The position numbers were made by a program, and so were the translations under genes. The notes under the pieces were generated by a model. That model worked only from the letters and a program-made list of their open reading frames with translations. It ran no database searches and had not been told where the DNA came from. This document shows, one piece after another, positions 49,770 to 58,431 of a stretch of 64,000 nt of DNA (the first letter of the stretch is position 1; every line of letters starts with the position of its first letter). This stretch comes from Odoribacter splanchnicus DSM 20712 (GTDB taxonomy: Bacteria > Bacteroidota > Bacteroidia > Bacteroidales > Marinifilaceae). The stretch lies in NCBI RefSeq assembly GCF_000190535.1, contig NC_015160.1:434001-498000 (forward strand). The letters run 5' to 3'.

Positions 49770-50492
49770 ATGCGTATAGCTTTGTTGGGATATGGTAAGA
49801 TGGGAAAAATGATCGAACGGATTGCCATAGAACGCGGACATGAGATTGTATTGATAGTAGACGAGAATAACCGGGCGGCTTGTACGGATGAACAACTGAA
49901 GCAGGCTGACGTCGCTATTGAATTTACGATGCCTGCTGTTGCCGTTGAAAATTATAAATGGTGTTTCGATAACGGCGTTCCGGTGGTTTCCGGGACAACC
50001 GGTTGGCTGGAAAGATGGGATGAGGTGGTGGCTTGTTGCCGGGAACAACAAGGTGGATTTTTCTATGCCTCGAATTTCAGTATCGGGGTGAATATTTTCT
50101 TTCAGCTCAATAAATACCTGGCTAAGATGATGAACGGATTTAACGACTATAAGGTATTTATCGAAGAAACGCATCATATACATAAACTGGATGCCCCTAG
50201 CGGTACAGCGATTACAATCGCCGAAGGAATTTTAGGTAACCACGACGGTTATCGTTCCTGGCAATTGAACGAAGGGAGACAAATGCCGGCAGATGTATTG
50301 CCTGTAACGGCCAGGCGTATCGGTGAAGTGCCCGGGATTCATGCTGTAACTTATAAATCGGAGGTCGACGAAATAGAAATCCGGCATTCGGCTGTATCAC
50401 GTGAAGGTTTTGCCCGGGGAGCTGTGCTGGCTGCTGAATTTCTGAAAGGGAAAAACGGTGTGTTGGGAATGGAAGATATGTTGAAATTTTAA
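49770..50492 (+). CDS. dapB: 4-hydroxy-tetrahydrodipicolinate reductase
   Basis: The 240-residue enzyme reduces HTPA in the lysine/diaminopimelate pathway. It starts MRIALLGYGKMGKMIERIAI (Rossmann motif) and has FTMPAVAVENYKWCFDNGVP, SGTTGWLERWDEV and the substrate-binding EETHHIHKLDAPSGTAITIA. The frame begins at 49740, but ATG 49770 fits the family. It is followed by lepB after 19 bp. Confidence 0.95.
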   Translation: MRIALLGYGKMGKMIERIAIERGHEIVLIVDENNRAACTDEQLKQADVAIEFTMPAVAVENYKWCFDNGVPVVSGTTGWLERWDEVVACCREQQGGFFYASNFSIGVNIFFQLNKYLAKMMNGFNDYKVFIEETHHIHKLDAPSGTAITIAEGILGNHDGYRSWQLNEGRQMPADVLPVTARRIGEVPGIHAVTYKSEVDEIEIRHSAVSREGFARGAVLAAEFLKGKNGVLGMEDMLKF

Positions 50493-50511
50493 TGGGGAAA
50501 ATAATTATCAT

Positions 50512-51885
50512 ATGAAAAATATTTTGACGAATAAATGGTTTAAATTCAGCCTTGTCCTGATTATCTACCTGTTGTGGGCTTATTGGGTTGGGAGCTGGTG
50601 GTTGTTGATCCTGGTGCCGGTGATTTTCGATATCTACATCACAAAGAAAGTACATTGGGCGTTTTGGAAAAAGAAAGGCGTAGAGAAACAAACCAAAACG
50701 GTTGAATGGATCGATGCTTTGATTTTTGCGGTCGTGGCAGCTACCTTGATCCGTATGTTCTTTTTTGAAGCCTATACGATTCCGACTTCCTCTATGGAGA
50801 AGAGTATGTTGGTGGGTGATTACCTGTTTGTCAGCAAAGTAGCCTACGGACCTAAGTTGCCTAATACCCCTTTAGCCGTTCCTTTCACACACCATACGCT
50901 GCCTTTTACCCAAAAGACAAAAGCTTATTCGGAAGCCATTCAATGGCCCTACAAACGGATTGCGGGGACGACTGAAATCAAACGAAACGATATTATCGTA
51001 TTTAATTTTCCGGCCGGAGATACCTTGATCGTAGGATCTGAAAATCCCGATTATTATAGCCAGATTCGTACGAATGCCCGGATTTTTCAGGCACAGGATC
51101 CCGGATTATCCCGGGAACAGGCCGAGAAGCTGGTGAGAGAAAAAATGTGGGAACGATTTGAGATCACTACCCGCCCTGTCGATAAGCGGGAGAATTATAT
51201 CAAACGGGGCGTCGGAATGCCCGGGGATATTCTGGAGTTGAAAGACGCTCAGTTGTATGTCAATGGAAAAATGTCCGATAATCCTGAAAACCTGCAGTAC
51301 AGGTATGAGGTGAGAACCAATGGTACCCCCTTGAATCGGATGAAACTTCAGGATATCGGATTGTCGCTGGAAGATATCGGTATTCCTTCTACAGTGAACT
51401 ATTTCCCGTTGACCTTGGAAATGGTGGAGAAATTGAAAAAATTCCCCAATGTGGTCGAAATTAACCGAACCAAAGAGGTGAGCCCTAATCCGGATATTTT
51501 TCCTTTCGATACCTTGAATTATCCTTGGAATGTAGATAATTTCGGACCTTTGTATGTGCCTAAAAAAGGAGATAAAGTGGAGTTGAATATGAAGACCTTG
51601 CCTTTGTATGCAAGGATCATCGGTACTTACGAAGAAAACGATTTACAGGTAAAAGATTCTGTTATTTATATCAACGGTGAGGTAGCGGATAGTTATACCT
51701 TTAAGATGAATTATTACTGGATGATGGGAGATAACCGGCATAGTTCGGCAGATTCCCGCTACTGGGGATTCGTGCCGGAAGATCACGTAGTCGGAAAAGC
51801 TTATTTCATTTGGTTATCCTTGGATAAAGATAAATCATTTTTCGACAAGATCCGGTGGAAGCGGATGTTCCGGTTTATTCATTGA
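50512..51885 (+). CDS. lepB: Signal peptidase I
   Basis: The 457-residue membrane protease removes signal peptides. It has N-terminal membrane helices (FKFSLVLIIYLLWAYWVGSW and IDALIFAVVAATLIRMFFFE), the catalytic Ser in YTIPTSSMEKSMLVGDYLFV near residue 92, the catalytic Lys in NYIKRGVGMPGD near 230, and the C-terminal MMGDNRHSSADSRYWGFVPE. The long insertion between boxes is usual for Bacteroidota SPase I. Confidence 0.96.
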   Translation: MKNILTNKWFKFSLVLIIYLLWAYWVGSWWLLILVPVIFDIYITKKVHWAFWKKKGVEKQTKTVEWIDALIFAVVAATLIRMFFFEAYTIPTSSMEKSMLVGDYLFVSKVAYGPKLPNTPLAVPFTHHTLPFTQKTKAYSEAIQWPYKRIAGTTEIKRNDIIVFNFPAGDTLIVGSENPDYYSQIRTNARIFQAQDPGLSREQAEKLVREKMWERFEITTRPVDKRENYIKRGVGMPGDILELKDAQLYVNGKMSDNPENLQYRYEVRTNGTPLNRMKLQDIGLSLEDIGIPSTVNYFPLTLEMVEKLKKFPNVVEINRTKEVSPNPDIFPFDTLNYPWNVDNFGPLYVPKKGDKVELNMKTLPLYARIIGTYEENDLQVKDSVIYINGEVADSYTFKMNYYWMMGDNRHSSADSRYWGFVPEDHVVGKAYFIWLSLDKDKSFFDKIRWKRMFRFIH

Positions 51886-51903
51886 CGGAAAGAAAATGAA
51901 TGA

Positions 51904-51973
51904 AACAGTAACAATCGATCAAACTTTTTTGCGCATATGAAATTAGAATTTATCGATTGTTACTGTTTTTTGT
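51904..51973 (+). terminator. lepB terminator with 16-bp stem
   Basis: AACAGTAACAATCGAT (51904-51919) and ATCGATTGTTACTGTT (51952-51967) are perfect inverse copies with a 32-nt loop, followed by TTTT. Nothing else is seen up to phoH at 52149. Confidence 0.8.
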
Positions 51974-52148
51974 TGTCACAGTTGCAATGGGAAAAATTGG
52001 TTCTTTTTCAAAAAGAAAATAGGCAGGAAAAAGAATATAAAGTTAATTAAGATGAATTCTGATAAAAGGAATCGTAAAAAATCAGATTGAAAGGATATTT
52101 ATGTATTTTTATTCGTATCTTACCATAAATTTCTAAATTCATACAACA

Positions 52149-53483
52149 ATGACTGCAAACGAAAAAAAGACATTTGTGTTGGATACGAACGTTATTCTGC
52201 ACGATTACCGTTCTATTTATAATTTTACCAATAATGATATCGTCATCCCCATAGTAGTTTTGGAAGAACTGGATAAATTCAAGAAAGGGAATGACCTGAT
52301 CAATTTTCATGCCCGTGAATTTGCCCGTGAGTTGGATAAAATTTCCGAAAAGGATTTTTTTGATAAAGGGGCAGCTTTAGGGAAAGGACGGGGAAGACTA
52401 TTTATTCAGCCGGGAGTGAAATTTTCTCAAAAAATGAAGGATTCCTTCAGTGATGATACTCCGGATCACCGTATACTCGCTGTAACAGAGTATATCAGTG
52501 AAAAAATGAAGGGACAAAAGGTGATTCTGGTGACTAAAGATATGAATCTGAGGATGAAAGCCCGTTCGTTGGGATTGCAGGCCGAAGATTATAAAACGGA
52601 TCAGGTGGAGGATCTGGATTTTGCAATCAACCGTAGTGTCCGGGAAATCGAAGGGATAGATACAGAAGTGATCAACAGGATTTATGAAAATGCAAATGGG
52701 GTAGAGGTGGAACAAGTGTTTCCGAAGCAAGAGCTCAAAGGCAATAATTATTACGTTTTGAAGAATGGGAATGCTTCGGTTCTGGCTTGTTATGATCCGG
52801 TAAGAAGAGTGATCCGGAAAGTGGAAAAACCGAATGTGTTCGGTATTTATCCCAAAAATGCAGAGCAGGCTTTTGCGGTAGATGCTTTATTGAATCCTAA
52901 CATACAATTGGTGGCGATCAGTGGAAAGGCAGGTACCGGAAAAACTTTATTGGCCCTGGCTTCGGCTTTACAGCAGAATAAACAGTATGAATTTATTTAT
53001 TTAGCCCGTCCGATCGTCGCTTTATCGAGTAAAGACCTGGGCTTTCTCCCCGGTGATGTCAACGAAAAGGTAGATCCGTATATGCAGCCTCTATATGATA
53101 ATCTGGGTTTTATCAAGCGGCGGTTTAATATCCATGGGGCTGAAAATCGCCTGATCGAAGAGATGCAGAAGGAACAGAAACTGATGATTTCTGCTTTGGC
53201 TTATATTCGGGGACGGAGTTTGTCGGATGTTTATTTTATTGTCGATGAGGCTCAGAATCTTACTCCCCATGAAGTAAAAACGATTATTACCCGGGCAGGC
53301 GAAGGCACGAAAATGGTATTTACCGGAGATATCGATCAGATCGATTCACCTTATCTGGATAAGAAGTCGAACGGACTGTCGCATTTGTTCGATAAAATGC
53401 AGGGACAGGATATTTTTGCCCATGTACATCTGGAAAAGGGAGAACGCAGTAAACTGGCTGATCTGGCGAGCGATCTTTTATAG
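52149..53483 (+). CDS. PhoH-family protein with N-terminal PIN domain
   Basis: The 444-residue protein combines a PIN nuclease domain (KTFVLDTNVILHDYRSIYNF, acidic residues in SDDTPDHRILAVTEY and VTKDMNLRMKARSLGLQAED) with a PhoH ATPase domain: Walker A AISGKAGTGKTLLALASAL near 257, and FIVDEAQNLTPHEVKTIITR with FTGDIDQIDSPYLDKKSNG. PIN-PhoH proteins are RNA-unwinding nucleases in other bacteria. The gene is single, with its own leader. Confidence 0.92.
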   Translation: MTANEKKTFVLDTNVILHDYRSIYNFTNNDIVIPIVVLEELDKFKKGNDLINFHAREFARELDKISEKDFFDKGAALGKGRGRLFIQPGVKFSQKMKDSFSDDTPDHRILAVTEYISEKMKGQKVILVTKDMNLRMKARSLGLQAEDYKTDQVEDLDFAINRSVREIEGIDTEVINRIYENANGVEVEQVFPKQELKGNNYYVLKNGNASVLACYDPVRRVIRKVEKPNVFGIYPKNAEQAFAVDALLNPNIQLVAISGKAGTGKTLLALASALQQNKQYEFIYLARPIVALSSKDLGFLPGDVNEKVDPYMQPLYDNLGFIKRRFNIHGAENRLIEEMQKEQKLMISALAYIRGRSLSDVYFIVDEAQNLTPHEVKTIITRAGEGTKMVFTGDIDQIDSPYLDKKSNGLSHLFDKMQGQDIFAHVHLEKGERSKLADLASDLL

Positions 53484-53588
53484 GAAATAGAGCGCAGGAG
53501 CTTGGCTTTACCGTTATCCCTGAAAGAGACGTTTAAATTTTGACATTGGAACTGCTTTTTCCCTATAGAAAAATTCGGTAAAAATCGC

Positions 53589-53596
53589 TATCTTTG
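53589..53596 (+). promoter_or_regulatory. -7 box upstream of the small basic gene
   Basis: TATCTTTG matches TAnnTTTG and lies 22 bp before the start at 53618, giving a very short leader. It indicates that the small gene is transcribed by itself. Confidence 0.5.
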
Positions 53597-53617
53597 TCTC
53601 CACTAACGAGAATAAAG

Positions 53618-53848
53618 ATGAGCAAGAAAGTGCAGTTCGACCGGGAAGATTATCTGAAAGCGAACCGAAAGCTATCCCGGGAAGAAGAGATCAAAACACA
53701 TGGACGTCCGGTTCGGATCGGAGGAGTCCACAAGTCGAAAAAGGTCTACGACCGCAAGCGGAGTAAGGCAGAGATGAAAAAGGCTCTGCCTTATTTTTTA
53801 CTTGTTATTCAACTGTCGATTTCTGCTTCAGGGATAGGAAGACGGTAA
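53618..53848 (+). CDS. Small basic protein with an intragenic terminator (possible ribosome-rescue type)
   Basis: The 76-residue protein is rich in Lys/Arg (MSKKVQFDREDYLKANRKLS, GVHKSKKVYDRKRSKAEMKK) and ends in a hydrophobic tail (LLVIQLSISASGIGRR). A G/C hairpin with T run lies inside the frame at codons 50-61, so most transcripts should end before the stop codon at 53846. That leaves a message for a form of about 60 residues with no stop. E. coli arfA has the same layout: a basic protein, a hairpin near its 3' end and a hydrophobic tail absent from the active form. The sequence itself is not ArfA. It has its own promoter box. Function inferred only. Confidence 0.75.
   Translation: MSKKVQFDREDYLKANRKLSREEEIKTHGRPVRIGGVHKSKKVYDRKRSKAEMKKALPYFLLVIQLSISASGIGRR
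53765..53800 (+). terminator. Terminator hairpin inside a reading frame
   Basis: AAGGCAGAG (53765-53773) and CTCTGCCTT (53784-53792) form a 9-bp stem with a 10-nt loop, followed by ATTTTTTA. It lies 46 bp before the stop codon of the small basic gene, not after it. Confidence 0.75.
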
Positions 53849-53960
53849 GGTTCCGGTACATTTATTTATACGTGTATGAGAAGGGGATAGGTTGAGATTG
53901 GCGGTAAGTAATTTTTTTGTAAATTTGAGAAACTTATTCGTATAATAAAATAATTAGCTT

Positions 53961-54512
53961 ATGAATGTATCCTATCTTTTTTTGGCTCCGGGTTTCGAGG
54001 AAATGGAAGCTATTGCTGTTGTCGATATACTCCGTAGAGGAGGACTAGATGTACGGACAGTATCTGTCGGTGGAGGTAATGAAGTGACCGGTGCCCATCA
54101 GATTACTATCCGTGCGGATTTGTCATTGGAACAAATTCGACCGGAAGAGGCTGAATGCCTGATTTTCCCCGGGGGAATGCCGGGAGCCCAGCACCTGAGT
54201 GAATGTGAAAAATTGATGACGATCCTGCAACATCATTACGATCAGGAACGAACGGTTGCAGCAATTTGTGCCGCACCTGCTTTAGTATTGAGTCATTTGA
54301 AAACAAACAGAAAACTCCGGGTGACCTGTTATCCTGGATTTGAAAAATATCTACCTGATTTCGAAGTCGTGACAGATGGAGTAGTCGTTGATGGAAAAAT
54401 GATTACCGGAAAGGGGCCCGGATTTGCTATCCCATTCGGATTAGCCGTTCTCGAACAGCTCCGTTCGGCTCAGGTTGCTGGTGACGTTGCTGACGGGATG
54501 TTGTTGTTATAA
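53961..54512 (+). CDS. DJ-1/PfpI-family protein
   Basis: The 183-residue protein has the DJ-1 fold: MNVSYLFLAPGFEEMEAIAV, a Glu in the first loop, GGMPGAQHLSECEKLM, and the conserved Cys in TVAAICAAPALVLSHLK near residue 104. Family members act as deglycase/glyoxalase-like or redox-protective proteins; the exact reaction is uncertain. Single gene. Confidence 0.93.
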   Translation: MNVSYLFLAPGFEEMEAIAVVDILRRGGLDVRTVSVGGGNEVTGAHQITIRADLSLEQIRPEEAECLIFPGGMPGAQHLSECEKLMTILQHHYDQERTVAAICAAPALVLSHLKTNRKLRVTCYPGFEKYLPDFEVVTDGVVVDGKMITGKGPGFAIPFGLAVLEQLRSAQVAGDVADGMLLL

Positions 54513-54646
54513 CGTGATTTATTACGTGGAACAACTCCTATTTATCTCCTATATATCCCTTATTTCCGACGTTATTATATAGGAATGAGGGGATAATTCC
54601 TAGCCTGAAGCTTTTTATACCGGTAGATCATCCACAAAAATAAGAA

Positions 54647-54698
54647 AGCCAACTAATTCGCAATACTTTAAGTATGAATTAGTTGGCTGATGTTTTAT
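54647..54698. terminator. Double-stem hairpin between converging genes
   Basis: AGCCAACTAATTC (54647-54659) pairs perfectly with GAATTAGTTGGCT (54676-54688), and inside it ATACTT pairs with AAGTAT. A T-rich stretch follows on the right. It lies between the DJ-1 gene and the convergent end of the second Sus operon and may stop both. Confidence 0.65.
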
Positions 54699-54762
54699 TA
54701 TTTACTGAATATCCCTTTTTAGGGTATACTAGTCCGGATTTTTAGCCGGTTTATAAATCTTT

Positions 54763-56304
54763 TTACCGTTTGTAACACATGCTGACGCAATTGCCGCATA
54801 CATTTTCATATAGGGTGGTACGTTCTTCCACTGTGCCGTTGTCTGCAAGTTTCAGTATATGAATACTTCCCTTTTTACCTGTAGCTCCGTTTTCTGATGA
54901 TACGACATACAAAGTGTTATTATAATCTTCGTTTGGAAAATAACTGGCATAACCATCGTAATGAGGAACATATTCCATGTAAATCCGTTCAATAGTGGTT
55001 TGTACTGTATTCCCGTTGATTTTGACCGTATCTGTATCGTAAATAGGGAAACAACGATTACTGTTCAGATCATATTGATAAATTTGGCTTCCTTTTGTAA
55101 AATACAGGAAAGGTCTTGCGACGGACATGGCATATCCGGCAGATTGTTCGATGCCTTCCGCTTCAGGAGTAAGGTTGACCCGGGAAAGCAGACGCATGGG
55201 AGAATTGCTATAGAAATCATTGAAGTTGCTTAAAGTGAATTCCAGTTTTTCCAATTGTCCGTTTGTATTTTTAAAAATACCGCATCCCCGTTTGGTGTTA
55301 TTTCCTGTCGGAGCTGCTTCGGCCATATAAACCAACTGCAAACCGAGGTTGGAAGGATCAAAGTTTTCCGAATCCGACTCAATAGAAGAAAAGGTATTGT
55401 TCAAACTCATCATATTTCCCTTGATATTCAGAAAACGTCCTTTTTGGTTGTCGTAGAAAAGATAGTTTCTTCCATTGACAATAGCATAGGGCGAGAGTTC
55501 ATAATCACCCGGGACAGCTGGATTGAATTGCAGGCCGTATCCCAACATGTCTGCAGCTCCCAGTAAACGCCCATGCAGTTTACCGTTATTGATGATAAAA
55601 TCGGCCATTGTTCCATAACTGGCAGGATATACTCCTTTGTAATAGGCTTGTGGATTAATAACTTGCGGTGTAATATAAAACAAATCTTCAAAAGTTGAGG
55701 AAACGGTCAAATCCGCATTATTCAGCGTCACCCCTCCTGAAGTTCCGTTGAGTATGAGCATATCTTTTAATTTCATGATTTGAGTTGTCGAGGCGTCGGC
55801 GACTATAACCGGATGGGTACCCAATTCATGTCCGTTGTCCGCTCCGTATACTTCCACTAAGTTGCCGGCTGTATTTAGGAATACCAGATTCGGAATTCCG
55901 TCGACTTCTCCCAGTACCATAAGCCCCTTATCGAATTTGCCTGTTACTGACAGAGTGAAATTAGATTTACTGCTCAGACCGGTTTCTTTATCCGTTACCT
56001 TTAGGTAGATGGTGTAATTTCCAACCGATAAATTGACGTTGTAAACCAATTTTTCTTCTAACGATAAAGTATCTACTTCCAGATCATTGTTCGTGTACCT
56101 GTACCAGCAATATTCCAAAGGAGTTTCTTTCCCGGAAAAGCTGATTTTAGGTTCGACTTCCAATTGATGGTAAATCTCGATCGTCCGGTTTTTCAAGGTA
56201 TCGATAGTGATTTCATGGAGTGGGTTATAATCATAAGTCCCTAAATCATCCATACAGGAAATGCCTAAAAAGGGAAATAGACAGAGATATAATAATTTTT
56301 TCAT
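54763..56304 (-). CDS. PKD-like surface lipoprotein
   Basis: The 513-residue protein has a lipoprotein signal peptide with lipobox (MKKLLYLCLFPFLGISCMDD), a PKD-like beta domain near 40-130 (VEPKISFSGKETPLEYCWYR, VGNYTIYLKVTDKETGLSS), and a long C-terminal part that looks like a beta-propeller. It is last in a SusC/SusD/DUF4843 operon and so is probably a surface ligand-binding accessory protein. The start at 56304 is chosen over 56328. Confidence 0.85.
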   Translation of the reverse strand: MKKLLYLCLFPFLGISCMDDLGTYDYNPLHEITIDTLKNRTIEIYHQLEVEPKISFSGKETPLEYCWYRYTNNDLEVDTLSLEEKLVYNVNLSVGNYTIYLKVTDKETGLSSKSNFTLSVTGKFDKGLMVLGEVDGIPNLVFLNTAGNLVEVYGADNGHELGTHPVIVADASTTQIMKLKDMLILNGTSGGVTLNNADLTVSSTFEDLFYITPQVINPQAYYKGVYPASYGTMADFIINNGKLHGRLLGAADMLGYGLQFNPAVPGDYELSPYAIVNGRNYLFYDNQKGRFLNIKGNMMSLNNTFSSIESDSENFDPSNLGLQLVYMAEAAPTGNNTKRGCGIFKNTNGQLEKLEFTLSNFNDFYSNSPMRLLSRVNLTPEAEGIEQSAGYAMSVARPFLYFTKGSQIYQYDLNSNRCFPIYDTDTVKINGNTVQTTIERIYMEYVPHYDGYASYFPNEDYNNTLYVVSSENGATGKKGSIHILKLADNGTVEERTTLYENVCGNCVSMCYKR

Positions 56305-56315
56305 AATCATTCTAT

Positions 56316-57026
56316 TTAATTCATCCAAGGTTCGATTCTTTGTCCGTGTTCGTCATAGATTTCATTTTCTGCAAAGAAATTATTCATTTGCATTCCATAG
56401 GCTGTTTTTTGAGTACGATTCAGATTACTCCATTCCATATAATCTTCAAATTTCACAAAGGTGTTCAATTTTAATTCAGAAAGGATATATCGGTGTTTCA
56501 CCCGGCTGTAGGGGCCGAAATAACTGCTGTAATACCCGTCCCAATACGGAATGGGGGGTAATCGGTTAGAGCTGACGATAGTTGCTTCTTGCCGGTAAGA
56601 AATCCCGGTGGACATATACGCTGCAGGTTCTAATTGTAATACCAATTTTACCGATAATGAATCGAGTTCGGGACTGTAATTCAGCGTTATGGGTACATTA
56701 AGCGAGTATTCGTCTTTTTTTATTTCATAGAATTCTTCTAAAGGCTGATAGTGTTTGTTGACAATAGCAGTGGTTTGACTGGAGTCTGCTTTTAAACGGA
56801 AACGATAATTTTGACCGGCATAACCGTTAAGTTCAACCGGAAGATTTACAGTGATGTAACTTTCCGAAGTATTCAGAAATGAACAGGCGATACTGTCCAA
56901 TTCGTTGTCAGATAAAGCAAAATGCATCGTAGTACTCCCGGAAAACAACTTCTGTTGGTCGTCGTTACAGCTACCTGCTATGTAGAGCAGAAACAATAAT
57001 ATGGTAAATATATACAGTGTTTTCAT
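56316..57026 (-). CDS. DUF4843-type lipoprotein
   Basis: The 236-residue lipoprotein has MKTLYIFTILLFLLYIAGSC at its N-terminus with the lipobox Cys at 20. The body matches the DUF4843 pattern (ITVNLPVELNGYAGQNYRFR, TTAIVNKHYQPLEEFYEIKK). These occur after susD in Bacteroidota operons; the ligand is unknown. Its stop lies 11 bp before the start of the PKD-like gene. Confidence 0.82.
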   Translation of the reverse strand: MKTLYIFTILLFLLYIAGSCNDDQQKLFSGSTTMHFALSDNELDSIACSFLNTSESYITVNLPVELNGYAGQNYRFRLKADSSQTTAIVNKHYQPLEEFYEIKKDEYSLNVPITLNYSPELDSLSVKLVLQLEPAAYMSTGISYRQEATIVSSNRLPPIPYWDGYYSSYFGPYSRVKHRYILSELKLNTFVKFEDYMEWSNLNRTQKTAYGMQMNNFFAENEIYDEHGQRIEPWMN

Positions 57027-57033
57027 GACTTTA

Positions 57034-58431
57034 TTATTTTGTAATCAGGTTGCCAAATTCTTTTTCATCATCAGGTAATGGGAAACAGAAGATTTTCCGG
57101 GGATTTTCGATATTCAATGCACCCGGAATATCGGTGTAGTCTTTCCGTTTCAGAAAGAAAAATAGTTGTCCTTCGGCCAGAAACGACTTCCGGTATTCTT
57201 TGAACAATTCCTCTTCAAATACACAATTCTCTTTCGTCAGGTCGAAAGCTGCCGGTATACCGTATTCATGCCGGACTGTATTCAGGTAATCCAAACCTTT
57301 TGCCGGCTCTGCCTGGCATTCTGCACAAATGTATTGTATCTCAGTCATTCGGAGTAAAGGTATGCCTTGATTCATCGGACCGTTTTGGTTGTATTTGCTG
57401 ACGAAATAGCGTCCGGTATTCGCATCGCTTTCGATAGTATTCGGATTCAATATGAGCCAGGAAGGGATACGGTTGTCGGATGATTCGTATTTTTCTGTTT
57501 CATAAAATTCTTTCCGTTGATTCTGAGACAGGGATAATTGTGAATTGTTTTCAGAATTTGCTGTAAAATAGTCATCCGACATTGTTGGTATCTTATCGGA
57601 GTATAGCCGGAACAATATCCGGTTTGTACCCAATAACGGATGGGCTATTAATTCATTGGCTATATTTCCGGCCTTTGGGGTTTGTCCGGCCCATAGATAT
57701 ACCCGGGCCATCAGGGCTTTTACCGCATAATAGTTCATTCTTTCCTCCCGGTTCCGGAGAAATTCGTCTTCCGGTTCCGTATTATCGGCTGCCGGTCCGA
57801 ATGGATCGCTGACTTCCAGTAAGCTCAGGGCTTCTTCACAGTCTTGCAGAATTTTTTCTGTAACGGCCATATTGGTCAGCTGGGGGAAAGGAGTGCGCGT
57901 AACCCGGTCTACATAGGGGATAGCCGCTGCATTTGCACCTACAGTAAAAGACGGTGCAAACATGCGTAGCAGATCGAAATGCAGATAGGCTCGCAGGCCT
58001 AAAGTTTCTCCCCGGATCAGTTCATAGTTATGTCCACTGAAAAGCTCCTGACGGCCCTCCATGTTTTCCAGCAGATTGTTGCAGTTCATAATGGTTTTGT
58101 ACATCGTTTTCCAAATGGCATCGAACTTAGATTTTACCGTAGAGGCTTCGTAATTATATATCGAAGCATTGTAAAAATTGTGGTAATTGTCGTTTATTGT
58201 ATAGTATTGGGCCAGGACATCCAGCAAACTCATTGTCAGCTCCTGGCCGTAAAGTGCCGGAGTGGCCATTGTGGTATATATACCGAATAGGGCTGTTTTG
58301 TATCCGTTTTCGTTTTCAAACAGGATATCGTTTTTCACCTGACTTTTGGGATTTACGTCGAACCAGTTTTCACAACTCATGAAAAATTGTGAACAACTGA
58401 TTAAGAGGCTGAGGATTAATATCTTTTTCAT
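57034..58431 (-). CDS. SusD/RagB-family lipoprotein
   Basis: The 465-residue lipoprotein has a signal peptide with lipobox (LLISCSQFFMSCENWFDVNP) and the SusD fold: an N-terminal domain with SQVKNDILFENENGYKTALF and RGETLGLRAYLHFDLLRMFA, TPR-like helices (RMNYYAVKALMARVYLWAGQ) and a C-terminal IPLLRMTEIQYICAEC. It is intact, unlike its partner SusC. It should bind nutrient at the cell surface. Confidence 0.95.
   Translation of the reverse strand: MKKILILSLLISCSQFFMSCENWFDVNPKSQVKNDILFENENGYKTALFGIYTTMATPALYGQELTMSLLDVLAQYYTINDNYHNFYNASIYNYEASTVKSKFDAIWKTMYKTIMNCNNLLENMEGRQELFSGHNYELIRGETLGLRAYLHFDLLRMFAPSFTVGANAAAIPYVDRVTRTPFPQLTNMAVTEKILQDCEEALSLLEVSDPFGPAADNTEPEDEFLRNREERMNYYAVKALMARVYLWAGQTPKAGNIANELIAHPLLGTNRILFRLYSDKIPTMSDDYFTANSENNSQLSLSQNQRKEFYETEKYESSDNRIPSWLILNPNTIESDANTGRYFVSKYNQNGPMNQGIPLLRMTEIQYICAECQAEPAKGLDYLNTVRHEYGIPAAFDLTKENCVFEEELFKEYRKSFLAEGQLFFFLKRKDYTDIPGALNIENPRKIFCFPLPDDEKEFGNLITK

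Follow-up and report, generated by a model that had tools for sequence, protein, structure and literature searches.

A candidate stop-less ribosome-rescue factor in Odoribacter splanchnicus and related Bacteroidales

What might a cell gain from a gene whose transcript appears to end before its own stop codon? The 64,000-nt window of the Odoribacter splanchnicus DSM 20712 genome analysed here (the whole stretch of DNA studied, to which all positions refer) contains a 76-residue reading frame, with its ATG at 53618 and its stop codon TAA at 53846-53848, in which a hairpin is followed by a run of six Ts and 46 nt separate the last T (53799) from the stop codon. In arfA and brfA a terminator likewise precedes the stop codon and the gene is repressed through trans-translation, as parts of the published accounts describe (PMC6299226, PMC6881298, PMC8012679). 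According to Table 1 of a 2024 survey of the FCB group, arfA occurs in 0 of 1956 genomes and arfB in 1426 (PMC11633108), so that the backup of ArfB-less genomes remains a gap; part of a further account describes ArfB as sporadically absent in Bacteroidetes (PMC6514570). We ask here whether the Odoribacter gene makes a stop-less message, and whether its product is likely to be a backup ribosome-rescue factor of the same kind.

A terminator inside the frame

The features of the locus are collected in Table 1. The hairpin has a 10-bp stem, extendable through weaker pairs, and the RNA from 53750 to 53810 folds at -23 kcal/mol against a shuffle mean of -11.7 (z -4.1, 0 of 200 shuffles as good). Taken by itself, the window sequence offers modest evidence for a terminator. 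A simple terminator scan reported only an inner 5-bp version at the locus (53780-53792) and no enrichment of terminator-like sites in 50000-57500 (8 against a shuffle mean of 7.4), while the coding strand of the window's genes (53,496 nt, 47 ORFs) holds 57 hairpins followed by a T-rich stretch at dG <= -8.5, 11 at dG <= -12 and 4 at dG <= -15. Since the scan does no better than shuffles and similar hairpins lie in other window genes, conservation must carry the case for a terminator: one such in-frame hairpin alone is not rare, its recurrence at the same position in most homologues is.

Table 1. Features of the locus, by window position
Feature	Position	Strand	Remarks
Promoter box TATCTTTG (TAnnTTTG)	53589-53596	+	29 nt upstream of the ATG
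Protein core, residues 1-52	53618-53773	+	two alignments, structure prediction, purifying selection
Terminator hairpin inside the frame	53764-53793	+	stem 53764-53773 with 53784-53793, loop 53774-53783; fold and covariation
T6 tract	53794-53799	+	message 3' end would be expected about here
Annotated tail and stop codon	53800-53848	+	identity at random level; stop distance resembles that of other frames

Homologous loci were drawn from one search, of which the best 80 of 140 were kept, and from a search of order genomes, in which 46 matches gave 30 loci. The loci at that stage numbered 119, which fell to 118 for want of an anchor in L008, to 96 on removal of near-identical cores and to 95 when the misanchored L116 was dropped. 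In 70 of these 95 non-redundant loci, a script seeking a hairpin and then a T-rich tract close to the SKKVY codons, which are conserved, found the hairpin in frame and the stop past the opening bases of the T tract; in 3 the stop lay within the hairpin or T tract, and in 22 the hairpin was absent, weak or distant. Reading the remaining 25 by eye added five in-frame hairpins whose T tracts are weaker or displaced (L036, L037, L073, L089, L102), for a total of 75 loci with an in-frame hairpin and then a stop; in four others the stop falls within the loop or T tract (L069, L072, L087, L114), one is cut off at a contig end (L062), and 15 end at an ordinary stop with the hairpin absent at the site (L049, L056, L066, L068, L075, L076, L080, L083, L086, L088, L101, L105, L106, L113, L119). 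Several of the ordinary-stop loci come from ruminant gut metagenomes, judging by record titles. Besides these there are six divergent copies, three with ordinary stops (L161, L163, L165), two with no motif match (L162, L164) and one, L160, that is the same gene as L106.

The stem itself shows signs of being kept as a structure. Across 43 of the 70 script-positive loci, those in which the hairpin codes a K-A...L-P pattern, 93.3% of stem cells are paired and 36 carry a double change, against 14.0 +/- 3.0 in shuffled alignments (a count reached in 0 of 500 shuffles); the picture from two softer measures is less clear (38 of 500 for pairs with a double change, 99 of 500 for pair types). Control structures slid along the same alignment pair at most 52.6% of cells, a comparison weighted towards the proposed structure, which was itself read off that alignment. 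The stems of other lineages are quite different, yet stand at the same place.

A preliminary description of the locus had noted a strong hairpin and T run in frame, 46 bp before the stop, and had read them as a message cut short in the manner of arfA. Coordinates, fold and homologues bear out the first point, and the alignment that it called for keeps the hairpin inside the frame, with covariation. It had also named a contrary pattern, homologues ending before the hairpin with the terminator after their stop; this is confined to a minority, the 15 ordinary-stop loci, among which L105 has a terminator-like hairpin immediately after its stop. Such comparison comes near to demonstrating a conserved stop-less message, in which our confidence is high.

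Two further observations concern the hairpin. Five metagenomic sequences (P0013, P0015, P0026, P0029, P0030) join the core of the window species to hairpin ends and tails like those of other genera (Phocaeicola-like, Alistipes-like); they are probably assembly chimeras at the shared palindrome, possibly products of real recombination. A 51-residue version (P0031), identical to the window protein through KRSKA and then ending, occurs on 55 contigs and is a genuine allele with an early stop or else an artefact arising at the hairpin.

What selection sees, and what is transcribed

Beyond the T tract, similarity between loci collapses. Ungapped nucleotide identity there is 0.26-0.27 in every core-identity class, even for 37 pairs whose core protein identity is at least 0.9 (core nucleotide identity 0.87), and the in-frame stop follows the hairpin after a median of 7.5 codons (mean 17.8), a distance of the same order as in the other two frames (medians 10.5 and 16, means 19.6 and 18.7). 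Since identity is no better than random, neither the annotated tail nor its stop codon is under selection, and the stretch is probably hardly transcribed. The core, on the other hand, has a dN/dS-like ratio of 0.11 (36 codons; 106 pairs, 52 loci), the mark of purifying selection, so that the unit of selection is the core plus its terminator. These findings sustain the idea of a message cut short inside the frame, and they lend no support to the companion proposal that a hydrophobic tail marks the full form for removal, for such a tail is conserved neither in sequence nor in length; a functional read-through tail or a conserved tail degron was rejected on its random-level identity. In two Parabacteroides loci (L025, L033) the frame stays open for more than 230 codons past the T tract and runs in frame into the downstream gene, which looks to us like that of a secreted peptidyl-prolyl isomerase.

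The overlap of terminator and coding end could be mere economy, the stop codon being dispensable where tmRNA trims and tags the product, with no regulatory backup role. The ordinary stop used by 15 of the 95 homologues lends this some colour, as it indicates that the protein itself does not need the nonstop design. Against it, tagging would lead to degradation of the protein whenever tmRNA works, and long-term purifying selection with a kept in-frame hairpin then makes little sense unless the protein is used conditionally. We judge simple economy very unlikely.

An ORF with a terminator at its end also recalls an attenuator, in which a leader peptide governs the gene that follows. No common downstream gene was found within the 1.5-kb flanks of the 95 loci; the largest neighbour cluster comprises 9 loci and lies upstream, and clusters with downstream members reach at most 7. 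Moreover, it is the protein sequence itself that is under purifying selection. An attenuator was dismissed on the unshared downstream gene, and we give it hardly any credence. Upstream, 44 of 94 loci have a TAnnTTTG box, which we take to be the Bacteroidota -7 type promoter motif, no more than 90 nt ahead of the ATG and mostly at a distance of 28-35 nt, against 3.9% of mononucleotide shuffles; an upstream TTG, at the spacing tried, was present in only 6 loci. Together, the upstream box and the unshared downstream genes point to what is probably a short monocistronic message.

An unnamed family and its hosts

The protein belongs to an unnamed family whose occurrence here is in Bacteroidota, chiefly Bacteroidales. 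Its core consists of a predicted helix (residues 9-28) and then a basic tail with SKKVYDRKRSK, the motif of which reads SKKVY[DN]RK across the family; the consensus of a 68-row alignment is MxKKxxxTxxDYxKANRKASREEEIxxHGxPVxxxxVHKSKKVYDRKRxKAx, with R21, E24, S40, Y44 and R46 invariant. AlphaFold2 models one confident helix over the same residues and, after it, a basic tail that is largely extended (mean pLDDT 83.6, pTM 0.44), and with this predicted layout the core looks like a rescue factor. Among 5.8 billion proteins, a single-sequence search found 96 relatives and the 68-row core profile 1973 at E <= 1e-3; where product names are given among the relatives listed (for the profile, the best 120 of 1973), they read 'hypothetical protein'. 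Searches of Pfam, NCBIfam and PDB with the family gave only weak, unrelated matches, and an Rfam scan around the locus gave one sub-threshold PyrG_leader elsewhere.

All 80 named loci (the best 80 of 140 kept) bear Bacteroidota names. The factor is matched in 46 of 392 order genomes at E <= 0.01 and in 7 of 392 genomes of a phylum sample, 4 of these at E <= 1.4e-5 and all from the same order; the other 3, weak and partial, were taken for chance, and a spread beyond the order was rejected. A mobile origin was likewise set aside: among the viral-contig matches listed there was one locus, and no such protein was present in the one frame read.

Distribution is patchy, the factor not being found in seven genomes of the host's own genus, four of which (G004-G007) also have no third PF00472 protein. 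No copy was seen at the same place in the sister genomes G004, G005 and G007. G004 keeps phoH and pfpI with no factor copy between them (L145), the gene that does lie there looking, in our judgement, like ndk. The tail of one relative (P0037) resembles this phoH-pfpI stretch, so that the factor may once have stood there and then been lost.

The host genome, a single contig of 4,392,288 bases, has a tmRNA whose ORF encodes the tag GENNYALAA, an SmpB, and two PF00472 proteins whose open frames, at 353 and 368 aa, match RF1 and RF2 in length. ArfB was not found in it by the PF00472 search or by an ArfB profile, nor was there an NFACT_N/RqcH match, so that no known backup was found there. A second tmRNA-like match (L121; G000:C1:67759-68040, minus strand) scores 50.6 bits in Rfam against a gathering cut-off of 47 and lies some 13 kb away from the true tmRNA; it is absent from the ARAGORN calls.

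Across the order, the factor and ArfB are almost mutually exclusive. A profile of seven ArfB sequences, five of them drawn from the searched set itself (G041, G050, G052, G054, G344), was run at E <= 1e-20 against 392 order genomes, presumably the same set as that searched for the factor, given equal counts and handles, and it found ArfB in 116. Three weak factor matches (G101, G115, G184; E 0.003-0.008, G115 and G184 with internal stops) were dropped, which reduced the carriers from 46 to 43; ArfB occurs in 1 of these, where 12.7 would be expected, and in 115 of the 349 others (Fisher p 4e-6). With the weak matches kept the figure is 3 of 46 (p 1e-4), and counted per genus, the only level at which relatedness is corrected, ArfB is present in 2 of 26 against 65 of 179 (p 0.003). 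These counts supersede an earlier one from partial genome lists (1 of 48 carriers, 15 of 36 others). The sole carrier with ArfB, G344, has a divergent copy of the factor (E 8e-4) that terminates at an ordinary stop codon. Species of one genus (g65) differ, some carrying the factor and others ArfB. In G064 there is a third PF00472 protein, judged from its sequence to be PrfH-like rather than ArfB. Neither factor nor ArfB appears in 234 of the 392 genomes, so that some cells either manage with neither of the two or possess something that went unseen. From the near-exclusion, ArfB and the factor probably share a cellular role as backup.

A possible rescue factor of independent origin

How, then, does the factor compare with rescue factors already described? 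ArfA (YhdL) of Escherichia coli is, in the parts of the accounts that cover it, likewise a small basic protein with a terminator before its stop and a basic C-terminal part, which lies in the mRNA channel (PMC6299226, PMC5378476). By eye, the two have in common the pattern K-x-K-x-x-Y-x-R-K; the residues before the basic tail are unlike those of the factor, and ArfA belongs to another order of bacteria, in the beta- and gamma-proteobacteria. An hhalign comparison with E. coli ArfA returned a probability of 0.3% (E 0.21), and none of 23 family members matched the Pfam entry PF03889, which we take to be the ArfA protein family, at E <= 1. By the tests made, the factor thus appears to lie outside the ArfA family as a protein, in agreement with the preliminary description, which had called its sequence unlike ArfA.

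BrfA (YqkK) of Bacillus subtilis shares the in-frame rho-independent terminator before the stop; as far as parts of its accounts describe, it is repressed by trans-translation, has an active form of about 62 residues and is restricted to Bacillus relatives (PMC6881298, PMC8012679). As with ArfA, its basic C-terminal part is placed in the mRNA channel by the published accounts, a layout that the factor matches. Sources, seen in the relevant passages, differ on its ancestry, one calling it an ArfA homologue (PMC11633108) and another seeing no clear resemblance (PMC6881298). The factor profile gave one chance hit only against PDB, though the BrfA structure 6SZS should be in that set. ArfT of Francisella tularensis, which resembles the factor by description, is short, basic and RF-dependent, with a KGKGS-like basic stretch, but its message is not stop-less according to the portion of the account that treats it (PMC6299226). 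ArfB (YaeJ) carries its own GGQ release-factor domain, whereas the factor has no Pfam hit and lacks GGQ, and would have to rely on RF1 or RF2. As in ArfA and BrfA, a terminator that precedes the stop within the frame is found in the window and in 75 of 95 loci and is missing in 15 of 95; a basic C-terminal region is present as the conserved basic tail, its binding in the channel being putative.

We consider it probable that this candidate is an independently evolved, tmRNA-repressed backup ribosome-rescue factor that works like ArfA and BrfA, a reading drawn from sequence comparison and from analogy. A promoter close to the ATG would drive a message of about 200 nt ending at the in-frame terminator, as the conserved anatomy suggests, and a ribosome reaching its 3' end would stall. 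Reading the frame to that expected end gives a predicted product of about 59-61 residues. A working tmRNA-SmpB, to judge from the analogous ArfA and BrfA, would free the ribosome and tag this product of some 60 residues for degradation, so that little would accumulate; were trans-translation to fail or become saturated, untagged protein would build up. Its basic SKKVYDRKRSK tail might then enter the empty mRNA channel, and its N-terminal helix recruit or activate a release factor, RF2 or RF1, with release of the stalled chain.

The same stop-less message and tmRNA repression could also serve a product that acts otherwise under translation stress, in ribosome hibernation or assembly or in RNA binding, for the anatomy shows regulation only and there are other ways in which such a small basic protein might bind ribosomes. 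Near-exclusion with ArfB, itself a rescue factor, fits rescue better, as does the lack of other known backups among the matches in the host genome, and the layout of helix and basic tail matches that of ArfA as part of its account describes it (PMC5378476). Such another function seems to us unlikely. The independent, ArfA-like candidate of the preliminary description thus gains support, as a candidate, from the 75 in-frame hairpins, a host with tmRNA and SmpB and no ArfB or RqcH match, and the near-exclusion of ArfB. In a full-text search, titles and opening lines of abstracts brought up no paper on a Bacteroidota factor of this kind, with most subscription journals outside its scope.

On balance we lean towards the view that Bacteroidales evolved their own tmRNA-repressed rescue factor, independently of ArfA, BrfA, ArfT and ArfB, and that it repeatedly swaps with ArfB, replacing it or being replaced. 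If this is true, backup ribosome rescue would have a general, convergent circuit in the stop-less message, and many gut Bacteroidales without ArfB and RqcH would have this protein as their alternative rescue factor. A new nonstop-encoded family would partly fill the backup gap of the FCB group and show that the same feedback circuit arose again, with relevance to the response of gut bacteria when trans-translation is lost or inhibited.
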